Shown here: in pieces, positions 11,201 to 60,848 of the stretch
Numbering within the stretch: the stretch's first letter is position 1
Layout: every line of letters starts with the position of its first letter
Origin: Prosopocoilus inquinatus
Taxonomy: Eukaryota; Arthropoda; Insecta; Coleoptera; Lucanidae
Length of the DNA stretch: 64,000 bases
Direction of reading: 5' to 3'
Assembly (NCBI GenBank): GCA_036172665.1
Contig: CM069880.1
Coordinates: forward strand, 5,954,501-6,018,500
The notes under the pieces: model-generated
Seen by the model: only the letters and a program-made list of their open reading frames with translations
The model's database searches: none
What the model was told of the DNA's origin: nothing
Made by a program: the position numbers and the translations under genes

Positions 11201-11781
11201 CATCAGAAGGGTAAGATAGGAGTTGTATCACGTTCTGGTACATTAACTTATGAAGCAGTACATCAAACAACACAAGTTGGTTTAGGTCAAACTTTATGTG
11301 TTGGTATTGGTGGTGATCCATTTAATGGAACTGATTTTATCGACTGTTTAGAAGTGTTTCTGCAGGATCCTGAAACAAAAGGAATAATACTCATTGGTGA
11401 AATTGGTGGTGTAGCTGAAGAGAATGCTGCCGAATTTCTGATTAAAAATAATACAGTAAGTTCTTTTATTGTTTACCCTCTGATGTAATGCAAACCGAAA
11501 TATTTAACAGGGACCTAATGCTAAACCAGTGGTCTCATTCATTGCTGGATTATCTGCTCCACCAGGTAGGCGAATGGGTCATGCTGGAGCTATTATTTCT
11601 GGTGGTAAAGGAGGTGCCCAAGACAAAATTAATGCTCTTGAGAAAGTTAGTTATCAAGACAATAGTACCTATTCAAGAAAATTAATAAATTTGTTTGCAG
11701 GCAGGCGTTATTGTGACAAAGTCTCCCGCTCAGATGGGAACTGAACTCTTGAAAGAAATGAGACGTCTGGGGTTAGCATAA
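8241..11781 (+). CDS. ScsalphA: succinyl-CoA ligase [ADP/GDP-forming] alpha subunit, mitochondrial (six exons)
   Basis: The alpha subunit of the TCA-cycle enzyme that converts succinyl-CoA to succinate with nucleoside triphosphate formation in the mitochondrial matrix. Coding exons are 8241-8277, 8436-8665, 9256-9477, 11171-11455, 11511-11645 and 11701-11781. They total 990 nt (329 aa plus stop), and every junction has GT/AG with matching phase. The N-terminus ([12 protein letters not shown]...) is Arg/Ser-rich like a mitochondrial presequence. The CoA-binding Rossmann motif ([19 protein letters not shown]) is in exon 2, [12 protein letters not shown] in exon 3, [20 protein letters not shown] and [14 protein letters not shown] in exon 4, and the phosphohistidine loop [16 protein letters not shown] in exon 5. 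Length and motifs match the family. Intron 3 carries two large hairpins. Confidence 0.95.
9506..9935. mobile_element. ~430-bp foldback element in ligase intron 3
   Basis: The two halves are reverse complements. The left arm begins near 'gggaaattcaggcaaccc' and the right arm ends near 'gggttgcctgaatctttc', pivoting around 9715. It directly abuts the larger hairpin at 9936-11028. Non-coding, with no transposase. Confidence 0.8.
9936..11028. mobile_element. 1.09-kb foldback element in ligase intron 3
   Basis: Starts TACCGGGTGTCCCGCG and ends CGCGGGACACCCGGTA. The arms, of about 500 bp each, are complementary along their length around a short centre near 10480. Examples are the 'gtgagcacat' ends and the shared 'tcaaaataccatcaaaggag' blocks in opposite orientation. 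It would fold into a very long stem in the unspliced ligase transcript. The element carries no gene; the 80-codon frame on the - strand is part of the arm. Confidence 0.88.
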
Positions 11782-18000: not shown

Positions 18001-21000
18001 AATAAAACAGTAATCCTATAACAGAAATATAAAAAAATATATATTTCATGAAAAATGAACTTGCGTTAAAGAAGAGTTTAAAACAAAATAAGTACCAATA
18101 TTGCTTTGTAAATGTAAAAAAGAAACAAACTTATTAGATATTGATATGTTGAAAGTTTGTAACAAATGTGAGACATGAGATACTGATGTCTTTTATTAAA
18201 ATTGGTATAAGCTGTTTTGCCACCACGTTTTCACCATTGGTGAGTGCCTGTCCGAATGTGTCCCACCAGAGTTGTCCGAACCTGTCCCTAATAATATATT
18301 TTAAACAATTTTGTAATAAAAAATGAACCTTATTACACAGCCCTGGCTGCATTGTGTCATAGAAAAAGTAATATAATAAACATTCGAGACAGACATTAGC
18401 AAAGAATTGTAAGAAATTTTATTGACGTGAAACCTTGTGCAATTAACTCGTAAAATTATTTCCTTACAACAAGAAACAATTTTCTCCTCTTTAAACTTAA
18501 AGTAATAAATTAGAAATGTCCAGAGGTGCCCCTATCCGAATCTACCCCGCTCTCCCCTACAGGCGATGCAGAAATTTGGAAGACACTCAATTTGCTAGTT
18601 TACAAACACATTACTCAATCCCATTCCCCAATATACATAGTACGTGATTGGCTTGGAATATATCCCCTCGTCGGTATTGGTAAACGTCCGTAAATTTGGT
18701 TGTAAGGCGATTCTGCTACATCGGAATCTAAATTTAAAAGTATACCAAAAATCTGTTCATTTCTTAATTAGCCAACTTACCAATTCCGCTTTCGAAACTC
18801 CTCGTATGCCACATGGGATGTTGATGGATGGGCTGCTGATGGATGTGATGTTGGTGCACCATGGGTAACGGTGGTGGTATATGCTGTTGTGTTATTGAGT
18901 AACGTTTCGACGGAGTTTGTTCTTTTGCTTTAGATTTGGAAACAAAATTTGGAACTCTGGCGCGTAGACCACAATAATAAGGGTCGTCTAAAACAAAGCA
19001 TTACCACCATCACGGACGAAATCAAAAAAGTTAATTTACCATATTTTTTATTGTCTTTTGTCTTTTCTTTATTTCTAGACGATGGGAATGGCTTCAGTCT
19101 ACCTTCCTCTTCATGGTCATCGTAATCGGGCTGGTAGGTATATTAAAAAAAAAGAAACAATTAGGTTTACTAAAACCATAAGTTGTAATTACCTTGGGAA
19201 TATCATGGGGATGATACATGTTCTCGCGTGGTGGCAATTTAGGTGGTTTGTCGCTACGACGTTGTGCATGTTGTTGGCTTTGCAGAAGAAGTTGTTCTCT
19301 GGTGGCAGCTACACTGCCTGGTCCTACAAAACCGGAACTGCCTGAGGAACCACTTCCATTACCTGCAATACTATAAGGATCTTCATCCGGAATTGGAATG
19401 CGAGGTCTGTTTTTGATATCCATTATTCTTTGAACTGAAAGAGAAGTTGAAGATAATACTAAATAGTGACCAGAAATGCACCTACCAGGTGGTAATTTTG
19501 ACTTAAGCATATCCATGGCGACAACATTGATAATGAGAACCCAAATTGGGCATTCCAACATTTCCTGTTCGGTTTTAACAAAAGCAATAGCGCTGAGACA
19601 TTGGCATTCTAGACGTTTGCGATCTGGATAAGCCCTACGAAGCTCTCTGTTTACATTAGACTGGAATTTCTTCATATCAAACAACTAAAACGATAACCAG
19701 ATTCAATGATTAATAGAATTCTGTAGGGTGAGTCACTGAACGCGCCATTTTTGATGGCTCATTTATAGTACGAGACCGATTTTTTTTTCACAGAGAGTTT
19801 TTATCTGTTGAGTTCTATAACAGAAATTATTTTGGCACATACAAGTGTCCCGTAAACTCGTGGCAGCATGAGGCAGATTTTTTTTAATTTAACACCCTGT
19901 ACATTTTCTTACAGAAAGATGTAAATTTGATCCTCCGACACAGCGGTATGCGAAATATTTACATTTACGTATTTAATCAATTAAGTGTAAATGCACATTT
20001 TGTTGAAAACTGTCTGATTATCTGCTTCTCTTTTAACATTTATTACGAATGTATTTTTTGTCATCCAACAATGAAACGCAATAGTGTTATAATTAGACCA
20101 AGGCGCTTTATAGAATATCTGGTCAAAACTAGTACAAAGATAAACAAGGCAGCTGCGCAGATTTCAATGTTTCCGCCGTTCGGTTTATATACGCGGGGCA
20201 GTTTCCCTTCTGGTGCTCATCCACCCCTTAGAAGGAAGCACCTGTTGTAAATTACGTGCACAACAGAATTGCCTTATAGTTTTTTCAAATTAATAATTAT
20301 GAAAACGTTACAATTATTTAATGTAAATGTATAACACGTTTAATTTCAATTATACACCGTGATTCAGAAATGTCTCCCGATATTTTCAGGGTGAATAGAA
20401 CATCAAATAATAAGGTCACCTTCTCATATAATTTTTTTCGAAAAATTAAAAATAAGAAATTGGTAAATTTTAGGGTATTGACATTACAGAATAGATGCAT
20501 AGAAACTTTTAAACCTTAATTACTCCAAAACGGTTGAGTTTATCGCAAAGCAATAAGAGAACCTCTCTTGTGCCAAATAATCTAAGGAATATTTTTTCCA
20601 CAAATTTTTGACGAAATATATAAAAAATAAAAAGTTAGAGATTAAATTACTGAGAGCTACCCCTACTAAACTACCCTTTAAAAAGGATGGAGGATCTAAC
20701 AAATGTGTTGCTAATGCACAGTTAGGTGCCTTGTATCTGTGTTTAAAATATTAGTTTGGTAAATTAAAGGATCCAGAAGATATTGCCAAAAAAACAAAAT
20801 TTTTCATGCCTCTTTCAGAGGTTATAACTCCCTTATTATTCAGTTTTGGAAAAATATTATATAAAAATATTATTTCTCGATGTTCTATTCTCCCTGAAAA
20901 TATCGGTAGACATTTCTCAATCACAGTGTATAACTAACTATTTATATCCTGTCGACCAGAACCATAGTGGTTATTGCGGGTCGCATAGACTTACTCGGGC

Positions 21001-39000: not shown

Positions 39001-42000
39001 CTAACAGAAAAATTGCATAGAACATCTTGTTTTTGGGATATCACATGTCGTGAATATAAGTATGGGAATAAAAAGAGGGCTGCTTTTGAAAACATTGGGC
39101 AGTATTGCGTAGTGAAGTTGAACAGGAAAAAATCTATTTTTGACGGGAACATAAGAACTGCAAGGTGCTAAGAAAAAGAACAATGTATACAGATTGTCCC
39201 GGATCAGTGTTTCGCGATCGTTTAGAAACAGTGTTCAATATATGTAGTTCAGACACGTTGTTTACAGTCTGAACTGGTCTTAAAAATATGTCGGCGCCAA
39301 GTTATGTTTCCAAATTCTTTATCAATGATTTAATGATGTGTTGGCGAACGAACGTGAAAACACGCCGGGGAAACCTGTGCGAACGAAACGAGCGCTGAAC
39401 CAGCAGAATACACAAAGAAAATAAAGTAAGAGCAATAGTTTCTAGGAAGTGCTTGGTGGCGAGGGCGCGGATCGTTAACGTTTTCATTGGCATCTAAATC
39501 TTACATTTTGTTTAATGAGTTTCTAAGCATTGTTATTTTATTTAAATACGCCATCCACTCCGAAAAATATTATAGGTTTTTGGCACTAAATTGGTAAATG
39601 TAACCACTGGATTTATTGTTCCTTGGAGGGGCACATAAAAAATATATAAAACCGAAGAAGAGCAGCATTAACGGCATTCAGCAATAATTCAACTTAATTT
39701 TTTCTATTAAATTCTGAATAGTCTTAAAAAAAAATAGTGCTTGAGTGGAAAATTTTTTTATTTTCTATGACCATTAGATAGAGTAATAATTTATATTATT
39801 TTAAGCAAAAGACTAAAAGAAATATTAACCAAACCATACGTTTTTGAAAAGCTCTCTCAAAACTGTAATATAACTTGGAAAAATCAATATGACTACTATT
39901 CTTAACGCCTGAACGGTCCAGTGGTAAGGGACCGGCCTTGCAATCGTAAGGTCGTGGGTTCGCATCCGCTCGTGATATTTCTCGGGGGTCGTTACTCACT
40001 TTAGGTGCCCTTCAGTGTTGGGGAGAAAATTCGACACTGCTTCTCCTTCAACGGCGAGGAGGTTTGGAAGTAACAAAGCCGTGGAACACTTTACACACAC
40101 AAAAATACACTTCCGCTTCTGATGTCCTTATTATTCCATGCCTTAGAATCCCGTTGGGCAAAGACCACAGAAAAAAAAAATTCAAAATGAATGCCATACT
40201 TACAACAAATAAATATTTAGCCGTTTTCAGTTTTTTTTTTCCAAATTGTGCAAAACCTAAAACGATAAATTATAAATCTGGTGACATATTTTTAACGAGG
40301 TTTAAAAGACGAAACTCTTTTCTCCTTTAACTAACAATGTAACTTTAATAATAAATGACATTCTTGTAGTGCATTAGAATAATAAGAACTAATTTAGAAT
40401 TTTAGAAATTTTTTTATCTGTAATGGTTGCCTAATGAATCGTAAGTCATAGACTTGTCAGGACCTCAGGAGCGGAAGTGTACTTGTGTGTGTGTAAAGTG
40501 TTCCATGGCTTTGTTACTTCCAAACCTCCTCGCCGTTGAAGGAGAAGCAGTGTCGAATTTTCTTTCGAACACGAAAGGGAACCTGAAGTGAATACCAACC
40601 ACCCCCGAAAAATATCTCGAGCGCGGTGCGAAACCACGGCCTTACGATTACAAGGCCGGTCCCTTACCACTTGGACCATTCATGATGATAATAATAATGA
40701 TAAAAGTGTGTCACTCTGTCACTATGTTTTAGCTGCGTTCAGAAAATTCCACTCAATACATAGTTTACAAGAGTTACAGTTAGTGTAATTATCAGTGAAT
40801 CTTAATTTGTTTTATATACGGTACATCGATGTTACTAAGCAATGTAAACTATGTTTAGCTTGCGGCGGCTTACCCGTTATAATAACGTCCTTGTCGCTCG
40901 CTCTACGATCATGTTAGCAAATTTGTAACGCTAACTTTCTTACTAGGGCATTCGACCAGTGTTGCCATACATAATTACCACAGTCACAACGCAGACCAAT
41001 CGAATTTTTGCAATACATTACAAAAAGACTTCTGCTGTGCTCCAATTATTCTCTTGGATAATTAGCACATAATAAATAATTCGGTCGGCGTTTACTTGCG
41101 TTCCAACGATTGATTTATGTTAAAGGAAAGCAACAATAATCACCTTCGCCTTCTCCATCATAACAAATCATCAGCATCAGCAATAAAATTTCTGAGTTTG
41201 AGGTTTTCTTGTACGGACTGCATGAACCTGATATTTGTTGCTTTAGTAAAACATGGCTCCCTAAGGAAACCATGCCAACCATACATATACCGGGCTACAC
41301 ATTAATTAATAACAGCTCTCGACATTATATAAGGGGTGGTAGTACAGCAGTTTGTGTGTTTGATCTCCATTCTGTCTGCCTCTTAATCCCGACATTCACT
41401 GTTATGTCGGATCATTTTATGTTATGCGCAGGGAAAAGAATTGAGCCCACTTAGTGTTGGATGCTATTTACGCAGAATCTTCTACTTACGCCTTCCGCGA
41501 CTCCGATGTTTTTAATTGTTATTAAGTGGGAGGGGAACGGGTATAGTGTGAGTGCTCCCCACTCGGCAGTAATTATTGTGGGCGTGACTAATACAGTCTG
41601 AATACTAAATTTCTGTACTTGTCGCGGATCTAGTGGGTCGATTTCTTCTCCCTGGTTATACATAACGTGCCGTTATCGACGATATTATATTATGTAATAG
41701 GAATTTGAATATGAAATCATCAATAACGTCACGTTATGTATAAATGAAATGATACAACATAGGGGTGATTGTCTGCGCAGATAAAAATTTTGAATTTTCA
41801 CGCTGTAAAATTAAATTCAACATCTTAATTATTATTATTTGTCTTTATTGATCTCCGGATGGTAACTTTAATATGTTAGGCGCCAAATTATTGGATCTGC
41901 TAAATTATATCTCAAAAATTTCAAAGAATATAATAGGTTGTGGTGATTTCAACACTAATTTCTTAGTTAAAACAGCGACATCCTACGACCTGACATTGCA

Positions 42001-45000
42001 GTAGGATAGAGAAATTGAAGCGAGTTTGCTACATAATAAGTTACCCCATGTCAGGCGGCCATGCTTGCTGTAAAAGCACAATGAAAGTTTAAAATTTTTT
42101 TGTTGCAAATCGTTTTTGATTGCAGTTAAAACCTCGAGCAGCCTCGGTACAGCTGTTTCAGCCCTACTTGGGGCTTCTTCAGCGGAAACGTAGCTCGGAA
42201 TTTCCACTGCAAACCAAAAACGACTTGAATAATTTATTCGCAACTGCGATGTAATGGTAGTGAATAGATAAAACAGCGACATCTTACGACCGCTTTTTGA
42301 CCTGATACTGCAGTAGGATAGACAAATTGAAGCGGGTTTGCTACATAATAAGTTACCCCATGCAAGGCGGCCATGCTTGCTGTCAAAGCATAACGAAAAT
42401 TTTTAAAAATTTTGTGGCTCATCGGTTTTGATTGCAGTGAAAACCTCGATCAGACTCTGCACAGCTGTTTCAGCCCTATTTTGGTTTGCAGTGAAAATTT
42501 CGAGCTACGTTTCTGACGAAGAAGCCCAGAATAGGGCTGAAACAGCTGTACAGAGATCTGCAATCAAAAACGATTTGCTATAATTTTTTTTTACTAATTT
42601 CTTAGTCAGTTAATCGAATAACATCTTGCTGGACATTCTAAAATCATATGGACTATGTAGACAAATTTTTGATCCTACGCGTACGCGTACGCGTACACTT
42701 GGTGATACTGCGACTTGCATAGACAATATCTTTAGTGATCTTCCTTGTCTCGACAGTTTTAATGTAGTATTTAGTATCCTCTTTATCGGACCATAAGGCA
42801 TAAATTTTCATATCCGAGATACCTCTACCTGCGACATGCAGTAAAGCCATTTGTACTAGGAGAAAATTCACACCAAACAACCGTTCACTTTTTTTATTCT
42901 GTATCCTACATGAGGAATGGTTCAACTCTTCTGATGGTGACCCTTCATTTGATAAGTTCAAGTGTGTGTTTGAATGGAATTTTCTTTTCCTGTAACTACC
43001 AAATATAAGGAAATTGGACGTAACGTTAAATCGTCTTGGATAAACAGGGAAATTATTATTAAGGTAATTCTGTCCGTGATCTGCTCCATATACATATGTT
43101 CAACATCAGGTAATAATAATTTAAAACATTTTTATCATTTTGCCAAGAAGGAGTACCAACATCTAGTGAAAATCACCAAGATTTCATATTCCCGCAGTAA
43201 AATTCTTAACTCCGCAGGACAGAGAGAAATAGATCTATGTGGAACATGATTAAAGACTCTACTGAATCCCCTCAATCATTTTCAAATCTTGAACTATTGG
43301 TCAATGACATATCTGTAAATGTTTAAATCACTCCGTCTTTTACCTCTGCCTTGTCTTTACGTTTATAACCTTGCAAAGACGTCTCCGGAGGAAGTCAGTT
43401 GTCTTGTGATTTCCACAACGCGTGGTAGGTATCTGAAGGGGCTTTGCTCCGTTTCGCGGTGTATCCGTCTGAGAGACAGCACACAACTTTGGTTAATATG
43501 ATGTGGCGTTTGGAGGACTGAAACTGCTCTCAGTTGTCTCAGCCTCGTCTCCGTTGTGAAGAACCGGCTTTTATTGTGGGGTACAACTCATTTTTACTTG
43601 ACGGTTTATTTTTACGTACGAGGTTAGGTTAGGTTGACTTTCACACAAAACATGTGTTTTTATTTTAATTCATTTAATCCTCTTATGCCATGGAGAAAAT
43701 CAAATAGGCGACGAAATTTCCTTGCATATTTTTATACACTCTAAAATAGAGCAAGACTGTTTTGTAATTCTTGTAATTTATAGGGCAATACAAATATTTT
43801 CTTCACTTATTTTATTCCGTGGTCTGCCAGGTCCTCTCTTAAATTTCACGGATTCTTCGTCTTGATTTTGTTCTACACCTTCTTTTGTGTTTTCAGCTGA
43901 TTGGATTCTTCTCAATGTCTTGTCTATTTCTGAGAATTTTTCTACAGATCCAATACACACTTAAAGGATTCAAAATTGATTGACAGGAAGATGTGTCTTC
44001 GGGGAATTTGACATCTCTACTGATTTATACTTTTCTGTCTTCTGGTATGCATACACAGTAGCCCTTTGATTGATCTGAGTATCCCAGAAAGACTTTGTTT
44101 TTCGATATCGTCTGAAATTTTCCTTTCTACGAAGATCTGTCAAGGATTTACACTTTACATCCAAATTCTCTCAACATACTCACGTTCGGTTTTCTTTCGT
44201 GATATAATTCATAAAGAGGTAGGCAAACCGGACTGGACATTTATAAAAATCAAGAAAAGAATGAGGCCTAGGACCGAGCCTTGAGAAACCCCGGTTTTTA
44301 TGGTGTCCACATCTGAAGATATTCCATCAACTGATAAGATTGTAGCTTTTTGTACTGAAGTTGTAGTACTGTAGCTTGTTTAAAATAGTGTGGTTGACGC
44401 AGTCGAAAGCTTTAGTGAGGCCACGCAGAGTAGCTCCTGAAAGGCTTCTTTGTTCGTGCGAGTTGATTATATAATTTATTAGATAAATAAATAATTGTAT
44501 AAGCCGTAGTTTTATTTTTGCCTAATTAATAAGACCGAAATCAGTTGTAAATAGTAGTAATGTTGGAAATATTTTAAAGTATAGCATTCCATATTTCCTA
44601 AATTATACCTCATTCCAAAAATTTCATAAACTTAATACACTCCTTCGTCCTATGGTTTCCACAAATAGATTACAATTTACTGTGGAAAAAGAAGATAGTA
44701 ATTCAGTGAGTTTTCTTAATATTAATATTATCATAGCAGTTGACTCTTGTCCGATGAAAATTGTAAGTTTTTAATCTATAACCGGATAGAATATAAATTA
44801 AACAAAAATACCTATCATTATCTTATACTAAACCATTACACAATACGATTAGACAAAAACATGATTTAATTTTAGCCAGTAAATCTGTAAATAATTTAAA
44901 TCTTATTTTCTCGAATTTAAAAATCAAAACAATTAAAACAACCTAACGTAGTTTACGAAATCTAATGTTCAAATTGTAATTGAATTTCTATAAGAGAAAA

Positions 45001-48000
45001 TTAAAGAAAAAAAACGTTTAGGCCAAGACGCTACTGCATCAGGGGAAACACCCTAAATCTTCTTTCCTCTTATTTAACTGGCAGAATGCAGACAGTAGTA
45101 ATTAATAATAATCATTCGAAACCTGCTGATATTGTATTTGGTGTACCGCAGGGGTCTATCTTGGGACCAACCTTATTTATTACATTTATTAATGATCTCG
45201 GTTTTTTTCTGCGAAATAGTGATTGTACCTTAGTTTGTTATGCCGATGATACAAATGTATTGATATCGCATGATAACTTTATAGATGTCGAAAAATCTGC
45301 CAAAATGATCTATGATATCATTAAAGTGTGGATGCTCAAGAACATCTCTATTAATCGCGATAAAACGTCAGTGATCCTATTTAGAAATATTAGATCTAAT
45401 TTTGATGTCAATTTAGTAAATTTACATGGGACGGACATTCCAATCGTTAGTAATAATAAACTACTAGGGTTGACTTTAGACTCTCATCTGCAATGGTCTC
45501 CCCACATAAGCTCACTCTGCTCTAAACTAAACAGTTCGTGCTTTGCATTAAGACTTGTTTCTCAGCACTGTAATTATACAACGTTACGTACTTTATATTT
45601 TGCTAATTTTCATAGTCACTTGAGATTTGGTATTATTCACTGGGGATTAAGCGGTGATTGTAGCAGGGTTTTTACTATACAAAAATACGCAATACGTATA
45701 ATTGCTGGCCTTAAACGGCGTGATTCCTGTAAGGAAGCATTTAAAACCCATGGCATTTTAACAGTACCTTCTATCTATGTTTTTGAATTGTGCTGTTTTG
45801 TTTATAAATATTCGGAGTTTTTCACACCAAATATCAATAACATCAAAAAAATGTCACCTTTATATAATTTTTTCAAAAAATTCAAATTTAATTGCAAATC
45901 GTTTTTGATTGCAGTGCATCCCTCGACCAGCCTCTATACAGCTCTATTTGGGCCTTCATCAACATAAGCGTAGTTCGCGAGATCCACTGCAAACTAAAAC
46001 GACTTGTCCAAGAATATTCGCAATACGATGTAATAGTAATGAATAGCTTAAGTAGTATCGCTACGATCGCTTTCTGACTTAACATTGCAATCAAAAACGA
46101 TTTGTAACATTTTTTTGTTTAACTTTCATTATGTTTTGACAGAAAGCATGGCCGCCTTGTGTAGAATGACTTATTATGTAGTAAACTGGCTTCGATTTGT
46201 CAATCCTAATGCAATGTTAGGTCAAAAAGCGATCGTACGTCGTCGCTGTTTAAGCTATTTATAATTTTCTCCTAAAGTAAATAATAAGGAAGTTGTAAGC
46301 CATGAACAAGAAAATTTATATAAAAAGGTGACCTTATTTTTTGATTTCTAATGTCCTCAAAATATCAGGCGATATTTCTGACTCACGGTGTATAACGAAT
46401 TACTAAAAATCTTATGAAATGCCGCTTTCAAACCAAGTTATCTTTGGTAGAGATGTTCGTGAAAAAAAATTGTATGGTAAATATTATTTTTCGTTAAGCG
46501 CATAATACTTATTGGAGTGGCCGGATTGTGTGGTCTTGACATTTTCTTAAGACCCTGAAGGCTAAACCAAACAACTTTCACAATAACAGCATAATTTTAC
46601 TATCAGCACTTTGATTTCAATTTATTTACGTATTCCATTTTGAATTCGTATTTTTTATCGATAACGCTTCATCAATACAGCGTAAATGGTTTTGAAAAAA
46701 TAAAATTCATTTCATTACGTTGGTGTGCAAGTGAATCAATCGTATTTGATGTCAGTAAAATTTCCAAAAGAAAATGTTCCTTTACGGCCAATTGTTTCTG
46801 GTATTAATGTTCTTTTTTACCAATTGTCCAAATTTACATCTATATACTAACATTAGCTTAGAAAAATGAAAATGATTTTAATGTAAAAAAAATCTGTTTT
46901 TGCAGAACAATTGCAAAACTATCAATTACCTTGTCAACCGTCGAGTAAGGTGTACTTTTATTTACGTTGTTTATTGGTTTAATTGCAAAAATAATTTCTT
47001 TTCAGGACTCATTTACGATGTTATTGACTTTATGTTGCATTACAAAATTATGTTTGATGTTTACATTGAAGCAGATTTATGATTGAAAATTAATTTTCGT
47101 AACGGTTCAAAAGTCACGGGAGTACCGAAACTGTTTGGAAGAGTTTAGAACTGAATTTGCCGCTGTATATTGTTGAGTATAAAATATTTGAAGACAATAG
47201 GTACAGATGTTTTGACAAACTGGAGGATCGTACGAAGAACATAAACACATACTGCTAAGGTTACGGAAAGTGCAACACTTGCAGTGGAAAATGCTCCATA
47301 CATCTTTATTCGCTCGTTATCACAATCAATTTGACTAGCTTGAGCTTTCGGTTGGAAGGTGCCACAAATTATTTTCAAATTTGCTCTTGGGTTTTTAACT
47401 GTTGCGTGCACAAGAAAATTTGAAACGATTTTTCACGTTTCTGGTGCAAGGCTTCTTTTACATAAAATTTTGTATTATTACTTTGATTTCTTAATTACAC
47501 AAATCTTCTAACCCTAACTTAGTCTAAGCAGACCGAAAATTGCAAGAATTGCATCTACTTTTTGGTGTGAACCCGTTTAAATCCGTACTTATAAAATCGC
47601 CATTGGTACAAACAGTAAATACGAATTCATGGCTACCACGAAAAATACCGATTTTATAAGTACGGATATTAAACAGATCCAAACTGAAAAGTAGATGCAA
47701 TTCTTGGAATTTTCGGCATGCTTAGACTAAATTGGGATTGTGAGAAACGTATTATGAAGAAATCAAAAACATTAACACGAAATTGTTTGTAAAAAAGGCC
47801 TTGCACCAGAAACGTGAAAAATGGTTTCAAATTTTCTTGTGCATGCAACAATTCGGACCCAAGAGGAAAATTTATTCTGTTAAATATTTTTTATGAATAT
47901 GAGTGAATAAGCTAACCACTCGTAATAGTTAATTTTACATTATTTGTTCTTTACCAAGTAATATGATTGTTACTAGAGTAGATGTTTTTAATAATTTTAA

Positions 48001-51000
48001 TCCACAAATTCAATTTTCCGTAGAAGAAGACACTAACAATTCAGTTCCATTTCTTGATATTAAATTAATAAGATTAGAAAATAACAGAATTATATTAGTT
48101 TGGTATCAAAAACCAACACATTCAGGTAGATTCATTAATATTAATTCATGCAATTCTTTAAATCGAAAATTAAATGTTTTGATTTCTTTTAGGAATAGAA
48201 TAAAAACTTTGTCATCCTACTTTTTTAGTATTTTTTTGGAATAATGGATAACCCTTAAATTTAGTTAATAAAATTTTATTTCAATATAATCAAAATGAAA
48301 ATAAAAATACGCAGAATATTAATAATAATAATTCACAAAATAATCAAAATCATAACATTTTCATTTATAAAAAAATTCCACCAATAATTAGTTATACAAA
48401 TATGATTATTAAAGAATTAAAAAATTTTAATGCTAAAGTTGAGAAATATAATTTAAAAACCATTAATAATCTGTTTAGTAAAACCAAGTATAAAATTCCA
48501 CTTCCTTATTAATACGGTATTGTTTATTGTATTCCTTGTACTGAACGTGATCAGGTTTACATAGGACAAACTTCCAATTGTCTTAAATCACGACTATCAC
48601 AACATAAATCTGATTGTAGATTAATAACAAAAAAAGATAAAAATTCTAGTGCTTTACTACAATATTTTAAAGAAAAAAATCATTTATTAGATTTCACTAC
48701 CACAAAAGTTTTAGAAAAAGAAACTAATTATCATGCAAGATTATTCTTACAGTTATTTCATATTAAAAAAAAACAATAATTTATGAATTTTCGATCAGAT
48801 ATTCAAAATCTTAATTTAGCTTATGAATATTTAGTAAAATTTGATTTCAATCGCAATTTGGAAGAACAGAATCAAAGGGTAAAGGTATTTTTAAACAATT
48901 TTCTAAATCTTGACTATCCTTGAAATAAAATTCGTTTTTTTCGACAATTACTTTGAAATATTGAACTTTATAATTTTGGAATGTAATTTCAACTAAAAAG
49001 TATGTAAGTTAATTTTTATTGTATGTAATTCAATCATTGTAACCTTCCTTTTGTAGTTTTTGCTCAGATGAAGGCAATAAAGGTTGTCGAAAGCTCAGCA
49101 TAAAAGTAGAAAAGTCTTTTATTGATCGCTAGCCCAATATTTTTGATAATAGTATAGTTTGCACTGAGTCCAAAATTACATTCCAATCAAGCAGATCTCG
49201 TAGATAAGTGGTATAGATATTTAAATGGGATGAAAAGGCAATCAAAAGTATAACAAATAAATCCATAGAATTAAAAGAAATTTGTCATACTTTAGGAATT
49301 ATAAAAAAAATTGTCAGGTCAAAAAGCGATCGTAAGATGTCGCCGTTTTATCTGTTTAGGAATTATGTTAAGAAAAATGAAATTCCCAAATTTAATGTTT
49401 GCTATAACTTTTATACTTGAATAGAAAGAATTATACAAATTACTTGTACAAATTTTCACCCAGAATGAAATAGTGTTTTTAGAATATATCTGGCTGACAC
49501 CTGTTTTTTTAGTGACAAGTGTCAAATTATTTTAACTTGTCTTCTTTTTTGTGAAAACAGCATTTGCAATAATTATATTCCGAAAATGTATTTAGAAAAT
49601 ATGAAAACATAGTATTTTGCACTAAATCACATTAGTAGGATATAAGAAACAAAGTACACAACATAAAATTTGATATCAATCTGTCGAATTATTTTAAAGT
49701 TGTTATTTTTTTATGTATTGCTTTATTATGTACTGGACTATTGATTTTTGTACAATTATTAATAATCTTGAAAATTTGTTGTTACATTATATGCCATTGT
49801 AGGAAGCGGTACACAAGTGTTTGCGATTAGGTATACATTTTTTTTTAATATACAGGAGATGAAATTTTAGTATTCAATCTAAATTGTGTGAATCTTGAAA
49901 TGATGGTTAGTTATAATAAATATTCAGTAAATCTTCAATGCGAATTGATTAAAAATAAAGTGCTTTTGAAGACGTAAGTAAATAAAACTATAGTAAAAAT
50001 AAAGTGCTTTTGAAGACGTAAGTAAATAAAACTATAGACCGTGTCGTTACTTTTGTTTCAATAAAGCTGAAGTCAATTTTGCAATAAATAAATAAGACGA
50101 CCTCTGAACCGAGCTGTTGTATTTAACTGTGGAAGACAAACGACGGTCAGCTGAAAAACTTTTATTAGTACCTAGTAGTTCTGACTGCTTGCAAAACTCG
50201 TGTGAATCTTACAAACGTTACAAAAAATATGTTTATATATAAATATGCATTTACGAGAGAATACAAAAAGTGACAAAACACGTCAGTGTTTCTGAATATG
50301 TTAATTCGTCGTTAATAATAATCGAGAAGAGAAAGCTGGTTCAGGTAGTCCAACATCTGATATTATTTATATCCACCTGACATACTCTCTTATTTCAAAA
50401 CTTGGAAAAATAGAAACTAATTGATGGTAAACTAGTTTAGTATGTAATAGGCTCAAAAACGTAATTAGTGCGTGAATAACAAAATTTACTATTCATTTCG
50501 CAAGTGTAGTCGCTAAAAAAGGAAGAACTTCGGATTTACACAATACTAGGCCTGAGAAGTACAAATTTATTCATACGCAACAATTATTATAGGAGTATTT
50601 TTATGTGGAAGTGTCTCAACATGACAAAGCATATTTTATGAACTTAGTAAAATTAAATTGGGCAGGCGTATGGCTCAGCGGTTAGCCTAGCCGACTTTGG
50701 AACTCGTACCACTTGTCGGCATGGGTTCGAATCAGACCGAACAGATCGACCAGACCGATTGGATGTTTGTGTTGTCCGGTTTTCGACCCAGCTTTTTTAC
50801 AAGTGGAAGTGTGTGGAATAATAATGCCATAAGACAACAAATGTGCTGATTATTGCGCAAAGCAAAAGAAAAAAAATAAACGTCCATGCAAGATGTTTAC
50901 GATTTTTATTAGCAAATATACTGTTCATAGAGAATAATATAAAGGCTGCGTATAGTTATTGTAAATCAAATTGTGTTAATTCAAGTAGTAAAATTCTTTT

Positions 51001-54000
51001 ATCAAAGGGTATATTAAGTTTATTTTCGTAAGTAAAGTTCTCGTATATAGTTTAAACTTTAAAAACGGACACTGTAAAATCGCAAGAAATGCTCTACCTT
51101 TCGCTATCACTTGGCAGCTTCGTCAGGAATGAAAAAATATAAATAAACAAGTTGTCAAGAGAAATGAAAAGGCAACACGATTTTAAACTAAAACACGAGT
51201 TGTCCAGGTTGTCTAAATTAAGAGTTTATTTTTTAATTTTATAAATTGACGGATCTCTATCCTATTTAATGAGTCGAGAAAACCATAAAATATGTCACTT
51301 AAATTAGCAAAATCAGTACGTTTATTAATAGAATTCGTTGACATTTTAATTTTACACATTTCTATGAAACGTCTTTTCAAAATATTAGATTTATAATATA
51401 AAATTTCAGTATTATCAAAATCAAAATTATTACTTACTAATGAGTGTTGTACCAGCATTGAATGATTTTGATTATTTTTTTGGATGTGATATTTATGTTG
51501 GTCTAAACGTTTTTTTTTTTTTTAAATTTTGACTTGTTTCTCCTATATAAACCGAATTACAATTTGAACATTTGATTTAACAAACAACGTTAGGTTGTCT
51601 TAATTTAGTTTTTAAGTTTGAGAAAATAAGATTTAAACTATTTATAGATTTACTGGCTAAAATTAAATTATGTTTTTTGAAAATGTGTTTAAATGTATTG
51701 TGTAATGGTTCAATATAACGTAGTGATATGTATTTTTGAAGTTTGTCTTACATTATTATTGACATTTAAATTTTGTAAATGTTTAAACGATTTTTAATTT
51801 GATTCGAGCAGATTTATTGGATATTAAGAATTTTGAATAAGAGTTTTCTTTATTAAGCTTAAGTTATCATAAATGCAAATTTTATCAGAAAGTTAAATAG
51901 CTCGATCTGCTAAGGAAATAATAGTCGCAATTTTATAATTTTTTGGTGTGTACGAGTGAAAATTTGTGTATCTACCTAACCAAGTAGATTTATGAAACCA
52001 ATTATTTATTAATTTGTCAGTCTGTCTGATAATATTTACATCAACATAAATATCATATCCAAAAAAAATAATCAAAATCATTCAATGCTGGTAAAACATT
52101 CATTAGTAAGTATTTTAATTGAAATTAACCTCCGCCCACAATAATTTTTATATCCGTAGTTACGTATTTCGGCAGCTAAACTGCTATCTTCAGTACGCTA
52201 CCAACTTAAAAGCAGTAAAAAGATCTAAAAACAACCTAATCAGTTTTAACATTTTTATGATTTTATTAGGATGATTAGGTTGTTTTTAGATCTTTTTAGT
52301 ACTTTTAAATTGGTAGCGTACTGAAGATGGCAGCTTAGCTGCCAAAATACGTATCTACGAATATAAAAATTATTGTGGGAGGAGGTTAATTTCAATTATC
52401 TCTTAAACCACTGTCTCCTTTACTATATTTGAGTAAGTATTTTGATAATACTGACATTTATATTATGAATATAATATTTTCAAAAAACTTTTCATAGAAA
52501 TGTATAAAATTAAAATGTCAACGAATTCTATTAACAAACGAACTGATTTTGCCAATTTAAGTACATATTTTGTAGTTTTCTCGACTCATTTAATAGGATA
52601 TAGATCTGTTAATTTATAGATATTATAAAATTAAAAAAAAACTTAATTTACTTCTAATTTAGTTATTTTACCTTTATGTATCTCTGGACAACTCGTATTT
52701 TAGTTTAAAATCATGTTGTCTTTTCGTTTCACTTGAAAACTCGTTTCTCTTGACAACTTGTTTATTTATATTTTTTCACTCCTGACGAAGCTATCAAATG
52801 ATAGTGAAACGTAGAGCATTCTTTGCGATTTTACAGTAACATTGGTTTTTTTGTTTAAAATTCATTAATTAAAACCATATCGACATGTTTTTCTTTAAGA
52901 TATATTATGTTTTTAATCTTAATAATTTATTTAGATTATATTATTTAGAAATTTTCTTATTCACCAGTGTATCACCGAGACCGCAGTAAAATACAGAAAC
53001 AAAATACACATTAAATTTTGATTTGCGCAGTAAAAAAGATTCAATCTTGTAAAAGCCAAGGTTCTGTTTTAAGCAACATTTCCAAAAACATACTGTATAG
53101 ATATTTGAACATAGATATAATGAAAAAAAGTTTTGTAACAAATGGAGTATAAAACAACTAAAAAGTAAAATGTATTAGCTATTACTTTTAATAACAAACT
53201 TTAATCTAATTTATCAGCTCTTCAAGAGCTATCAAAACATGTAATAAAATATATAAATTTCCAATAAAAAAAAAACACAAGTTTGTTGTGTAACATAATA
53301 AAAAAAACTGTATAGTTGAAAATAATTTTAGATTATGTAGATTATGATCCTGCACAACTTATGTTAAGAAATTTTTTTGATAAAATGTAGGTAAAATCCC
53401 ATTTTCGTATCTCCCAGAACGTTGGCACACCCTGTATAAAAAGCAACTGTATCAAGTTATTCACGCAAACCGTTCATTAAAAGCGAATCAGGGAAAGAAT
53501 TTAGGTAGGAATTTAATTAAAATTTTATTCTACAAGATATGAGGTGAAATGAAAAGCTGAAATATCTGCAGATAAATAGGTGCCAAATTCAAAAACGACT
53601 TGCAAGACGGAATATAAGAATATAAGCAATCGATATTTACAGCAGACGTACAAATACACAACTAGCAGATCAACAGACAAGAAGGACGAAAAACTAAAAC
53701 CCAAAAATTGGGTAAAAAGTTACGGCTGCGATTAAAAAAAAATAACGTTGAAGTCAGAAAAACGCCAGAACTTTTACCACCAAAATCAGAATCATTCCAA
53801 ATTAACAAAATATGAATACCCTATATCGAGTTACTACAGGTATGCCCATTTTAATGAGCGCTCATTGGCGGCTGTCGATTTAAATTAATTTGTAAAAATA
53901 TTTCTTCTGTGTAGATACAAAAAAATCAGATTTCTTGTACATAGAAATCAAAATCTCATTTGACCATCTACATTCTTTTATGAATTATTCAAGATGACGT

Positions 54001-54793: not shown

Positions 54794-56384
54794 CTGCAAC
54801 GGAAAAATATTATTACCATGATCAGTCATTCACACACAGTGTAACAATGACAAAAATACGTTTGATGTTATGTGGTGCAGTTTGTAGATCTGGTTAACTA
54901 AAGAACTTTGGTATATTAGAAGTACTTAAAACTATTTCATTTGAACTCTCTTTTAATCAGGTTGAAAGCTAAGTTAGAAATTCCCAGATAATTTAAATAA
55001 GCCGATCAAATTGTTGGAAAGAAAACAAATATTTATTAAATCTTAATTCTGGTTGCATGGCAACAATCAGGGCTATTCCGTAACATTGACATGCATATCA
55101 GTTGATATGGTCTTCAATAATAGAGGAGAACTTGATAGGAATTCATAACAATTCAAGTCGACTGCCAATTGAAGAGAGATGCATATTAATTTGATATCAC
55201 TCTTGATACGGATTGCAAGTTGTTACGAAACTGTTTACAGAATACCGATTTTGCAAGGTCACCTAATACATAGCAATAATTAAGAGGTATCAATTATGCC
55301 AAAAAAAATAAACAAAAATATTTGATATACAATGCTTTTTTTAACTGTGGCCAAAGTGATTTACATGGATAACATTTTGCGTCTTGCTAATTTACGTTTT
55401 AAGAAAATTTCAGTTTCTAATAATCAATTATAATTTATTACAAACTACACATTAACAGAACTACATGTACTGTCTAAAAGTGTTTGTGCGACAAATTAAT
55501 TAACTTCGATCTACTAGATTAATATTTGATCATTAATTTTTTTATTATTATTATTATTATTATAAATTCTAATATTAAAATAATTAAATTAAGTATGCCA
55601 TGTCATTCTGGTAATATGCAATTTTCTATTTTTATCTTGTTCTATAAATGATTAATTATGAGTTGCTAAATAAACGACTTATAATAATCCAAAAAGCAGC
55701 CCTTAGTAACTCCCTCTGTAGGTTTTGAAGGACACAAATGAAATTAATTCTAACTAATGTTTACATCATATAATAAATTATATTTTGAACGTTTGAATAC
55801 TAATAATATAAATATTCTTAAGTTCAAACACAAATAAAACATGTTTTGAGAAAAAAACAACAAATATCGATCAAGTAGATTCGTTTAAAAAGTGTGATAA
55901 AAATGTTCTACATGTCCTTCTTCACGTTTTAGATCATTTGGTAGAAGATCATCAAATGCTTTTCCAGTATTTATTAGATTCACGATTTAATTTCCGACAT
56001 TTCTTACTTGAAAATAACTACATTTATTTTATCGAAACGCATGAAGAATGTATTAATGGTATTAATTAGTGTACTTGCTTGCAATCTTTTTTTAATAAAA
56101 TTGAACATACTACTTTAACTATGCATAAATATTTATAGTTGTAAGAAATATAAAGAAAATAAAATTTCATTCAGATACGACAAGTAGTTTTTTAAAATAT
56201 TGGACAGTTTTTCAACATTGCTCCGCCGCCATTGCGCCGTGTGTCATAATAACATTTATTTTCTTTTGTAGTTTACCACTTACGGATAGAACACTGTTCC
56301 TAGATCTCAAATGTTAGTAGAATTGTAGTAGCGAACAGTGTCAGCTAATAATGTTCGTCTTGGTATGGACCATAAGGACATAAG
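54794..56384. other. no gene recognised
   Basis: Presumed intron or 5' flank of the MH2 gene. AT-rich, with an (ATT)n run at 55541-55563. I searched the - strand for another coding exon with a fitting donor phase and could not support one. Confidence 0.35.
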
Positions 56385-57300
56385 GTACTGTCTACTGTGA
56401 AAACCCAACACACTACATCAATTCAAAACAACATTGAGTCAAGAGATGTTTCTTTCAACTTCTAAGGCTCCGTCTACTACGGACACCCAACACACTAGAC
56501 CAGTTCAAAACAACATTGTGTAAGTGTCAAGAGAAGTTCCTTTCAACTTCTAAGGTACCGTCTACTACGGAAATCCAACACGCTACACCAATTCAAAACA
56601 ACATTGTGTAAGTGTCAAGAGAAGTGTCTTTCAACTTCTATGGTACCGTCTATTACGGAAACCCAACACTACATCAATTCAAAACAACATTGTCTAAGTG
56701 TCAAGAGATGTTTCTTTCAACTTCTAAGGCACCGTCTACTACGGAAGCCCAACACACTAGACCCAAAACAATATTATGTAAGTGTCCAGAGAAGTGTCTT
56801 TTAACTTCTAAGGTATCGTCTACTACAGAAACCCATCACACTACACCAGTTCAAAACAACATTGTGTAAGTGTCAAGAGAAGTTTCTTTCATCTTCTAAG
56901 GTACCGTCTACTATGGAAATCCAACACGCTACACCAATTCAAAACAACATTGTGTTAGTGTCAAGAGAAGTGTCTTTCAACTTCTAAGGCACCGTCTACT
57001 ACGGAAGCTCAATACACTAGACCCAAAACAACATTGTAAATGTTAAGAGAAGTTTGTTTGCACCTTCTTAGGTGCCGTTTATTACGGAAATCCAACACAC
57101 TACACTTATTGAAAACAACAATATGTAAAATGTCAAAAGAAGTGTCTTAACTTCTAAAGTTTGTGTCTACTACGGGAACCCAACACACTAACCAGTTCAA
57201 AACAATATTGTGTAAGTGTCAAGAGAAGTTTCTTTTAACTTCTTAAGTACCGTCTGTTACGAAAACCCAACACACTACATCATTCAACTTCCTTGATATT
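56385..57300 (+). repeat. ~88-bp tandem array, about 11-12 units
   Basis: A unit built of 'gtgtaagtgtcaagagaag', 'tttcaacttctaagg', 'accgtctactacgga', 'acccaacacactac' and 'ttcaaaacaacatt' repeats. The 'tctact' marker occurs at 56391, 56473, 56561, 56649, 56735, 56819, 56907, 56995, 57078, 57166 and 57253 (spacing 82-88). Unit variants recur (for example 'aatccaacacgctacacc' at 56561 and 56911), suggesting multi-unit duplications. Confidence 0.92.
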
Positions 57301-57480: not shown

Positions 57481-58615
57481 AGTCGTCAATTTTCTGGAAG
57501 AATTTCAATCATTCACTGACGACTACTCCCCTGTCGTCAGTTGTTGATGCTGGCCCTCCACCACATTGTTTTCTTCGGACAGACTTCATGACTTGGTTCA
57601 CGTGTTGTCCCAAGGGCGTGATTTCAGTTGCAAGGCACTCTAGGCTGCTCAGTACACTGGACTACCAGTAGCTCACTGAGCCCTTCAAAGCATCTGAAGT
57701 ACACCGGACCGCTCAAATAATTGCAGTACACTAGACTCTCGGCAGCACACTGGACTGCTCAAAACAATTAGATTGTAAGCAGCATCCCGGAGCGCTCCAC
57801 TTGGCTAGGGTATTCATTAGGCTCCCAGCTCTAACACCTTGCAGAATACCGAAGGAGGTGTTCAGTGGCAACAATTCCATTGAACCGCCTTCGGTCTGTA
57901 GAGAAGGATACTAGTTTGAAACGGCCTTTATCCAATACATCAAGATTTTGAAACCAATGTATTTGAGAACAAGTTATCCGCTGGGGTATCCTCGAATCAG
58001 CTTCGCCCGTACTACATATACTACAACCCCTACATTAAATTACGTAATCGTATGATTACAATCATATCTCTCTTTCATCTTTTTAGCGACATCACATGAG
58101 TCCATTAGAATCAAAACCATCCATTTTTCAAAATTTTTCAGGAGACCCAAACAAACAACAAAATGTAAATTCCAAAGAGAGTACCGATATTTCTCAAAGT
58201 AGTATCAATAAATGTCCTAAAATGGCACACTGTTTTGGTGCAAAGGTCATTTCTTTACGCCCCTTACATTTCAGAAATTTTCAATTTTATTTTGGATTTA
58301 GCAGGTTTTGATTCAAAGTCCACGAAATATTACCCAAATTCCTCATTTCCCGCTATTTTTAGGCGCATTTTCCGAGTAAGGCTTGTTAATTTCACTGAAA
58401 TTATTATTATTATTATAGTTATATTATAAAAAAATCTTGATCGACTCCCGTCATTTCTGTTCAAAGGCGCGGTGTCATGAATGGTGTCACTACATCATGT
58501 ATTGTGTATTAAATTAAATTAAATTTTGTGCGCGATACTGGAGTCTGATGAGTCAGTGAAGTGGGAGGTAAATTAAGCGCGTTTCAAGAATATCCGCCGA
58601 ACTATAATTATTATA

Positions 58616-58751
58616 CAAAATTTCATTATGCTTTGACAGCAAGCATGGCCGCCTTGCATAGGGTGATTTATTATGTAGCAAACCCGCTTCAGTTTGTCAA
58701 TCCTTATGTACTTCAAACAGCGATCGTAGGATGTCGCCGTTTTAGCTAGTT
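58616..58751 (+). mobile_element. retrozyme-like element, copy C
   Basis: 136 bp, flanked by the perfect 13-bp duplication TATAATTATTATA (58603-58615 and 58752-58764). It contains the family segment 'gcaagcatggccgcc...ttattatgtagcaaac' and the constant 3' end (GCGATCGTAGGATGTCGCCG). The hammerhead-like part is missing through 5' truncation. Confidence 0.87.
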
Positions 58752-58764
58752 ATAATTATTATAT

Positions 58765-60693: not shown

Positions 60694-60848
60694 CTTTGTT
60701 CCAACTGCTCGAAAAACCGTATAATACACAATCATGAGCGTGCGCATTACACAAAGGGTATGCGCAGTAAACAAAAGGACAAATAAATTGTTTACTGCGC
60801 ATGCTGATGATCGTACAATGTACGGTTTTTCGAGCAGTTGGAACAAAG
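60694..60848. repeat. 155-bp hairpin
   Basis: The left arm 'ctttgttccaactgctcgaa' is mirrored by 'cgagcagttggaacaaag'. Inner arms include 'tgcgcagtaaac' and its complement. Non-coding foldback. Confidence 0.85.

Follow-up and report, generated by a model that had tools for sequence, protein, structure and literature searches.

Positions 41968-42592 of a 64,000-nucleotide stretch of the genome of the beetle Prosopocoilus inquinatus (contig CM069880.1 of assembly GCA_036172665.1; this whole stretch is the window in what follows) hold a 625-bp insertion that is quite probably a copy of a non-coding retrozyme, made of 312-bp tandem units in which a type I hammerhead ribozyme is predicted. Its insertion was likely the work of a Penelope-like enzyme priming at two fixed internal RNA sites, one per cut DNA strand. 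Judged by sequence, the retrozyme identity of the family to which the insertion belongs is close to certain, and the family would be a new member of this class of elements.

The insertion is flanked by perfect 14-bp direct repeats (41954-41967 and 42593-42606, 100% in a repeat search), and when the flanks were joined with one repeat copy, a single endonuclease frame of the non-LTR (long terminal repeat) type ran over the site, reading IIGCGDFNTNFLVS*SNNILLDILKSYGL with one stop; the repeats are therefore a true target duplication. An earlier note on this DNA, made from the letters alone, had described a 625-bp insertion between perfect 14-bp duplications with its last ~100 bp inverted, and both descriptions were borne out, the right-hand ~113 bp being inverted and the arms 42143-42219 and 42479-42555 being 88% complementary. 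Its tandem units also stood, as 41987-42172 is directly repeated at 42299-42484 (86%), but the unit length of 301 bp was rejected: the repeats are spaced by 312 over a 186-bp stretch and by 301 over a 27-bp stretch only, because the 3′-most unit lacks 11 nt, and the unit measures exactly 312 nt from cleavage site to cleavage site. Comparison with other copies assigned the sense strand to minus, and in sense order the element consists of the inverted arm (42592-42479) followed by the direct arm (42484-41968), which spans ~1.7 units. The parts are as follows, S1 and S2 being two sites in the unit, around positions 200 and 57, at which most insertions of the family end.

41954-41967, no strand: left copy of the target-site duplication, ACTAATTTCTTAGT (repeat search at 100% and endonuclease read-through of the joined flanks).
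41968-42484, minus strand: sense arm of 1.7 tandem 312-bp units, with its outer 3′ end (41968) at unit position ~191, site S1.
42100-42232, minus strand: rod containing the hammerhead (RNA fold of 42100-42230).
42142-42188, minus strand: type I hammerhead-like ribozyme with the full core, the predicted cut, read from the sequence, falling between 42148 and 42147 (GUA/C) (Rfam Hammerhead_1 model positions 1-45 of 45, 13.6 bits, sub-gathering; family conservation).
42455-42484, minus strand: truncated second hammerhead, 3′ half only, with G at H17 (alignment).
42479-42592, plus strand: inverted head-to-head arm with a hammerhead rod that lacks C3 and U4, the outer end of the arm being at an A/T tract, unit position ~54, site S2.
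42593-42606, no strand: right copy of the target-site duplication (repeat search).

The rod named in the earlier note, with CUGAAGA, AGCCC/GGGCU, GAAA and ACA/UGU on the minus strand, was found as described: from 42188 to 42142 the strand reads as the 2.x strand, CUGAAGA, AGCCC-CAAGUA-GGGCU, GAAA, C-AGCU-G and UA/C, and the RNA of 42100-42230 folds at -54.3 kcal/mol (z -6.2 vs shuffles). The combination of CTGANGA, an adjacent stem II of at least 4 bp and GAAA occurs once in the 64 kb, both strands counted, vs 0.033 expected by chance (20 matches in 600 first-order Markov windows), and with stem III and stem I added it was seen in none of 60 simulated windows. The covariance model Hammerhead_1 (RF00163) aligned end to end with the window copy at 13.6 bits (E 0.84 in a scan restricted to 90 nt) and with a young copy, L030, at 23.0 bits (full length, E 8e-4 over 4,227 families in a 111-base stretch), both below its gathering score of 34 bits; an Rfam E-value scan of 1.6 kb around the element returned no hammerhead up to E 10. 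Stem III is a palindrome, ACAGCUGU, that could, from its sequence, also pair between two units, and minimal hammerheads of Penelope-like elements (PLEs) are said, in work by Lunse from 2017, to act as dimers. The window copy itself has a C1.2-C2.2 mismatch and is probably a dead-end product, because only one of its rods, of which there are three, keeps the full core in register: C3 and U4 are missing from the inverted rod, whose CTGACGA is present but 3 nt off stem II, and the third rod is truncated, with an uncleavable G17.

The genome that was searched (649,647,856 bases in 173 contigs) contains 14,278 exact hammerhead cores, 3,030 with GUA (1,568 + 1,462) and 11,248 with GUC then CAGAG (5,588 + 5,660), vs none for the backwards-read control of either core type, and there are 11,462 occurrences of a 27-base piece taken from outside the ribozyme. 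A search with the whole element gave 181 matches from the best 40 scored of 6,721 candidates, and tandem copies were found, including 40 rods in a 12.3-kb stretch with a head-to-head turn (L055 and L056). Among 21 units cut from L055, 20 are 312 bp long and 98.7-100% identical to their majority, a uniformity that would speak for recent activity or homogenisation; the GC content of the unit is 42-43%. Two samples were drawn for closer analysis, one of 35 stretches picked by similarity, supplemented by 11 longer ones that cover part of these places, and one of 40 stretches surrounding GUA cores from the start of contig C1 (drawn from the 100 listed of the 3,030), referred to as the C1 sample. 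Conservation was followed in 114 rods from 31 of the 46 loci picked by whole-element similarity, 15 redundant, partial or array loci being excluded; these rods could be detected only if they spanned and matched the ribozyme region, and units that belong to one insertion are non-independent. Minor alleles of at least 10% were confined to two bases of loop II and three other columns: position 2.5 in stem I (a U or a C facing G), N7 (A, C, T) and H17 (C or A). The remaining core and stem columns are 92-100% one base, and the catalytic columns 95-100%. Position 2.5, N7, loop II and H17 are places where hammerheads tolerate change, and common polymorphism is thus confined to hammerhead-tolerant positions.

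The earlier note had offered the retrozyme-like identity together with three results that would speak for an ordinary SINE-like (short interspersed nuclear element) repeat, namely the lack of a covariance-model match, of other tandem copies and of a conserved core; a model alignment, tandem copies and a conserved core were each found, and the identity is supported. An ordinary tandem satellite or SINE-like repeat whose resemblance to a hammerhead is accidental or a relic would account for the low Rfam score of the window copy and for the best fold of the rod being a plain hairpin, and is nevertheless improbable in view of the number of exact cores, the restriction of polymorphism to tolerant positions and the dispersed insertions with target duplications described below. 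ARAGORN found no tRNA gene in the window, 7SL- and 5S-type SINEs being covered by the Rfam scan only. The sole element-internal frame of at least 90 aa had no Pfam match and no protein relative. No relative of the element was found in plasmid records, and no match to the hammerhead pattern in IMG/VR, where matches to a 16-base piece (L001-L019) were rejected as having only short stretches in common with the element.

The manner of insertion was read from the outer ends of the copies. Parsing of the sampled stretches yielded 87 insertions, 79 of which were not cut by a stretch edge and supplied 158 outer ends. With S1 counted as unit positions 185-212 and S2 as 45-75, together 59 of the 312 positions, 131 of these ends lay at one of the two sites (S1 64, S2 67), and no 3′-type outer end of the 79 insertions lay at the ribozyme cut; the C1 sample alone (41 insertions, 82 ends) had 29 ends at S1, 39 at S2, 3 elsewhere and 11 of the 5′ type. 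Where both ends could be assigned, 48 of 54 insertions combined S1 with S2, the others being S1/S1 (2) or S2/S2 (4), which for independent ends has a P of 1.6e-9, and simple pairs of arms placed head to head make up 60 of the 77 insertions left after removal of two duplicate loci. Target duplications were detected, at a score of at least 9, in 37 of the 79 insertions vs 2.3% of 774 mismatched flank pairs; they range from 9 to 16 bp, 29 of the 37 being 11-14 bp long, and are 80-84% AT. The inverted end had been attributed in the earlier note to strand switching during insertion, an explanation that is now replaced: priming at a second fixed RNA site explains the arm better than random switching, because its outer end is fixed in most copies.

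Two fixed ends and AT-rich target duplications are also what a DNA transposon or MITE (miniature inverted-repeat transposable element) would leave if it had two fixed termini and an inside that was scrambled later. This explanation is hardly credible, as the S1 and S2 ends are not mutual inverted repeats (by eye), the duplication length varies, and the copies differ in unit number and in the inner ends of their arms, which cut-and-paste would not generate. A more serious competitor, though still unlikely, is mobilisation by a LINE (long interspersed nuclear element) of the Jockey/CR1 type, with the inverted 5′ part resulting from ordinary twin priming. Reverse transcriptase and endonuclease remnants of this type lie in the window, duplications of 11-14 bp are compatible with LINEs too, and no inverted arm was detected in two of the four family insertions of the window (listed below). 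Twin priming, however, fixes only the 3′ end, whereas in the 48 of 54 insertions the inverted arm, too, has a fixed outer end, at a second site; furthermore, the listed S1 junctions have no poly(A) tail of non-unit letters, and the A/T tract of S2 is inside the unit. The LINE explanation is disfavoured by the fixed S2, and priming at two internal sites by a Penelope-like enzyme is preferred.

The same ends recur within the window, where four family insertions, each with its own 12-14 bp target duplication (one with a mismatch; three read from the sequence), were recognised, i.e., the 625-bp element and the following three.

45875-46259, plus strand: second insertion, head-to-head, with the S1 end on the right and the S2 end on the left; 12-bp duplication 45863-45874 / 46260-46271 with 1 mismatch.
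49303-49354, plus strand: third insertion, ~50 bp, with an S1 end; 12-bp duplication 49291-49302 / 49355-49366.
58616-58750, plus strand: fourth insertion, sense only, with an S1 end; 13-bp duplication 58603-58615 / 58751-58763.

All four terminate near one point of the unit, at about 191-197, and in both copies with an inverted arm the outer end of that arm is near the A/T tract, at unit position ~54-64. The Jockey/CR1-like endonuclease and reverse transcriptase remnants (plus strand, 41164-46300) host two of the four, one in each part.

The form of the RNA template can be approached through the arms, of which 132 were followed. Since 93 of them verifiably run across the position of the ribozyme cut, the copied RNA was mostly either circular or a concatemer left uncleaved, and a ribozyme-cleaved linear monomer was rejected as the usual template. 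The inner ends of the 132 arms are spread over the unit. An apparent pile-up at the cut, where 12 of the 132 arms seemed to end at unit positions 1-3, was also rejected, being mostly a query-edge effect, with most of these arms running past the cut; L052 genuinely ends at unit position 2, and L028, L059, L061 and L079 continue for only ~3-8 nt beyond it. The left and right arms of one insertion mismatch at 72 of 590 diagnostic cells, vs a fraction of 0.441 for different insertions (63 insertions), and units within one insertion differ at a mean of 0.075 of diagnostic cells vs 0.435 between insertions (21 insertions), the within-insertion figure including L079, two insertions merged by the script, at 0.504. 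On sequence, this agreement of arms and units fits one circle per insertion and would also fit transcripts of homogeneous arrays. Folded as a circle, the young unit reaches -112.1 kcal/mol (z -4.2 vs random sequences of equal dinucleotide make-up), with S1 and S2 both in predicted unpaired stretches, and the unit of the window copy is weaker (-79.2 kcal/mol, z -2.4). A circular template is plausible. A broader proposal, held tentatively and with doubt slightly ahead of belief, is that animal retrozymes might be circle-using parasites of Penelope elements: a closed 312-nt RNA, bound by a PLE enzyme, would be read simultaneously from both cut strands, from S1 on one and S2 on the other, and each insertion would be a two-armed, head-to-head copy of a single circle.

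The earlier note had placed PLE remnants in the intron that holds the insertion, and a candidate for the type of partner is present in the window.

48513-48776, plus strand: piece of a GIY-YIG endonuclease from a decayed element that is likely Penelope-like, the candidate partner type (Pfam PF01541, 30.8 bits, E 3.6e-7).

Genome relatives of this piece lie in frames with reverse transcriptase, and PLEs are abundant, with 150 endonuclease matches from the best 150 scored of 2,886 candidates and open frames of up to 718 aa. Each of the three PLE frames that were fetched matches both RVT_1 and GIY-YIG, the GIY-YIG match of L123 being at 21.6 bits, under the cut-off of 22.6. Their loci have inverted copies, which are terminal in L122 (948 bp) and L123 (385 bp) and run to the stretch edge in L124 (144 bp), and the L123 element has a hammerhead-like motif near each end. 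In the available text of PMC11167929, a purified anole PLE starts reverse transcription internally at two adjacent RNA sites, has a preference for AT-rich targets and can both cut and extend the two strands, and its hammerhead ribozyme is present and dispensable for insertion in vitro; genomic PLE copies are described, in the available text of PMC3846280, with direct repeats plus a head-to-head inverted repeat and, in the cases quoted there, 8-10 bp duplications. The retrozyme insertions show the design given in these accounts, i.e., fixed internal ends, head-to-head arms and short AT-rich duplications, and mobilisation by a PLE is, by this analogy, the best-supported explanation, with the enzyme deduced from the design.

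Further observations concern PLE-like sequences. At the 3′ end of the PLE in L122 (3540-3580), an 11-mer, CTATCCTACTG, is in common with unit positions 139-149; the match is not above shuffles, and the 11-mer could be a recognition element common to both. A degenerate hammerhead-like motif, CAGATGAAGGC..GTTGTCGAAAGCTC, lies at 49065-49090, downstream of the GIY-YIG remnant. A decayed head-to-head element at 51071-52837, which by resemblance we take to be Penelope-like, contains the inverted pair 51071-51421 / 52439-52837 (79%) and has no Pfam match above cut-off; hammerhead-like motifs occur at both of its ends (51126, minus strand; 52782, plus strand), reading CTGACGA-A-GCT..AGY-GAAA with one extra A before stem II. 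Its inverted arms enclose another insertion, palindromic and at 52116-52398, each arm of which bears a hammerhead-like motif, and a tail protein at 51213-51521 has no protein relatives and no Pfam match above cut-off.

Together these data suggest a sequence of events. Tandem genomic copies would first be transcribed into multimeric RNA, which the hammerhead, as predicted from the known pathway of animal retrozymes, would cut into 312-nt monomers, to be closed into circles by a host ligase. A Penelope-like protein would then bind the RNA and nick AT-rich DNA on both strands ~11-14 bp apart, and the two DNA ends would be extended from different sites, S1 and S2; the observations beneath this step are the paired fixed ends, the target duplications and the head-to-head arrangement of the arms. 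Finally, as the insertions show, the cDNA arms extend past the ribozyme cut, in some cases by several units, and the point at which they join varies.

Several results weigh against this reconstruction and have to be set beside it. The first group concerns the ribozyme: no hammerhead at the Rfam gathering level was found in the window, L030, L040 or L055, and a plain hairpin beats the hammerhead fold both in the young unit (-38.4 vs -32.4 kcal/mol, a gap of 6.0) and in the window copy (-34.0 vs -26.6 kcal/mol, a gap of 7.4), as computed by a folding program that ignores tertiary contacts. The 10.1-11.1 pair of the predicted hammerhead is A-U, where hammerheads usually have G-C. Once the query-edge artefact is removed, the 132 arms show no excess of ends at the ribozyme cut and therefore no genomic trace of cleavage in the template. 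The second group concerns the single circle: 11 of the 53 insertions with at least 3 shared diagnostic columns have arms that differ by at least 30%, among them the window element (L020), whose arms are discordant at 2 of 6 diagnostic columns, and L062 mixes unit subfamilies in one insertion (40% mismatch at diagnostic columns); these discordant insertions and L062 are hard to derive from a single RNA circle. The third group concerns the ends and their sampling. Outside S1 and S2 fall 27 of the 158 ends (11 elsewhere, 16 of the 5′ type), end counts that include segmental duplicates (L033/L034, L048/L049, L072/L073 and two copies in L035), and the C1 sample was selected by the ribozyme pattern. 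Five of the 77 insertions have complex patterns and were excluded from the arm counts, and 42 of the 79 have no duplication at the threshold used. Lastly, no sequence shared beyond the shuffle maximum was found between four PLE 3′ regions and the unit, the best-placed being that of L122 with a score of 22 against a shuffle maximum of 22.

The window has other features besides these. A tandem array at 56381-57287 is composed of 88-bp units in ~10.5 copies, with periods of 258 and 346 also present. Self-inverted stretches at 41656-41743, 47377-47872 and 60694-60848 form palindromes of ~88, 500 and 155 bp that are 74-78% alike, and the second of them adjoins a likely Penelope-like remnant. Exons resembling an MH2-domain protein lie at 19094-19684 on the minus strand (24.8 bits vs a cut-off of 25), which are presumably those of insect ‘expansion’, and exons resembling succinyl-CoA ligase lie at 11147-11488 on the plus strand.

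Among known systems, the metazoan non-LTR retrozymes (Cervera and de la Pena 2020, PMC7229834) are the closest. In the available text of that paper they share with the present family tandem units of ~300 bp that bear a type I hammerhead and occur as anything from dimers to large arrays, a GC content of 42-43%, target duplications of more than 4 bp and coexistence with PLEs, and the values found here lie within the ranges given there for metazoan retrozymes (unit lengths of 150-450 bp, dimers up to large multimers, a GC content under 50%). The axolotl retrozymes of the same paper have, likewise, a short stem III with a tetraloop, palindromic in one of two types, that can act as a dimer; their units are 330 and 350 bp vs 312 here, the likeness is one of description, and dimer action is predicted in the present case. 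The beetle family differs from the metazoan retrozymes described there in its head-to-head insertions with two fixed internal ends and in its hammerhead with A10.1-U11.1 that scores below the Rfam gathering level. The words ‘inverted’, ‘head-to-head’ and ‘junction’ are absent from the main text of PMC7229834, and in the literature searched, available in part, no description combining a retrozyme with head-to-head insertions was found, although other work could hold one; within these bounds, the two-end insertion signature has apparently not been described before. Retrozyme integration was left open in the text seen of PMC7229834 between LINEs and PLEs, with PLEs a strong candidate, and the two-end signature, which separates PLE-type from LINE-type insertion, bears on this question of 2020. 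It also gives defined positions for work with purified enzymes. Insertion by a Penelope-like enzyme, if correct, would say who moves these RNA parasites.

With the hammerhead PLEs (Frangieh 2024, PMC11167929; Arkhipova 2013, PMC3846280), as far as the text of these papers was available, the family shares tandem and head-to-head repeats, short AT-rich duplications and insertion ends that fall internally, downstream of where the ribozyme cuts. Unlike PLEs, the retrozyme has no open reading frame (reverse transcriptase, GIY-YIG). Its start sites are ~140 nt apart, as compared to a ‘tail’ of 30-40 bp in the PLEs described there. If the circle proposal is true, the thousands of copies in this genome would document, in vivo, a two-strand, two-site target priming that has so far been shown with purified enzyme. 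The retrozyme has one start site per DNA strand, whereas the anole PLE had no strand difference in vitro in the available account (PMC11167929), and the present data suggest that integration uses a different RNA start site for each DNA strand, a feature not seen in that in vitro study.

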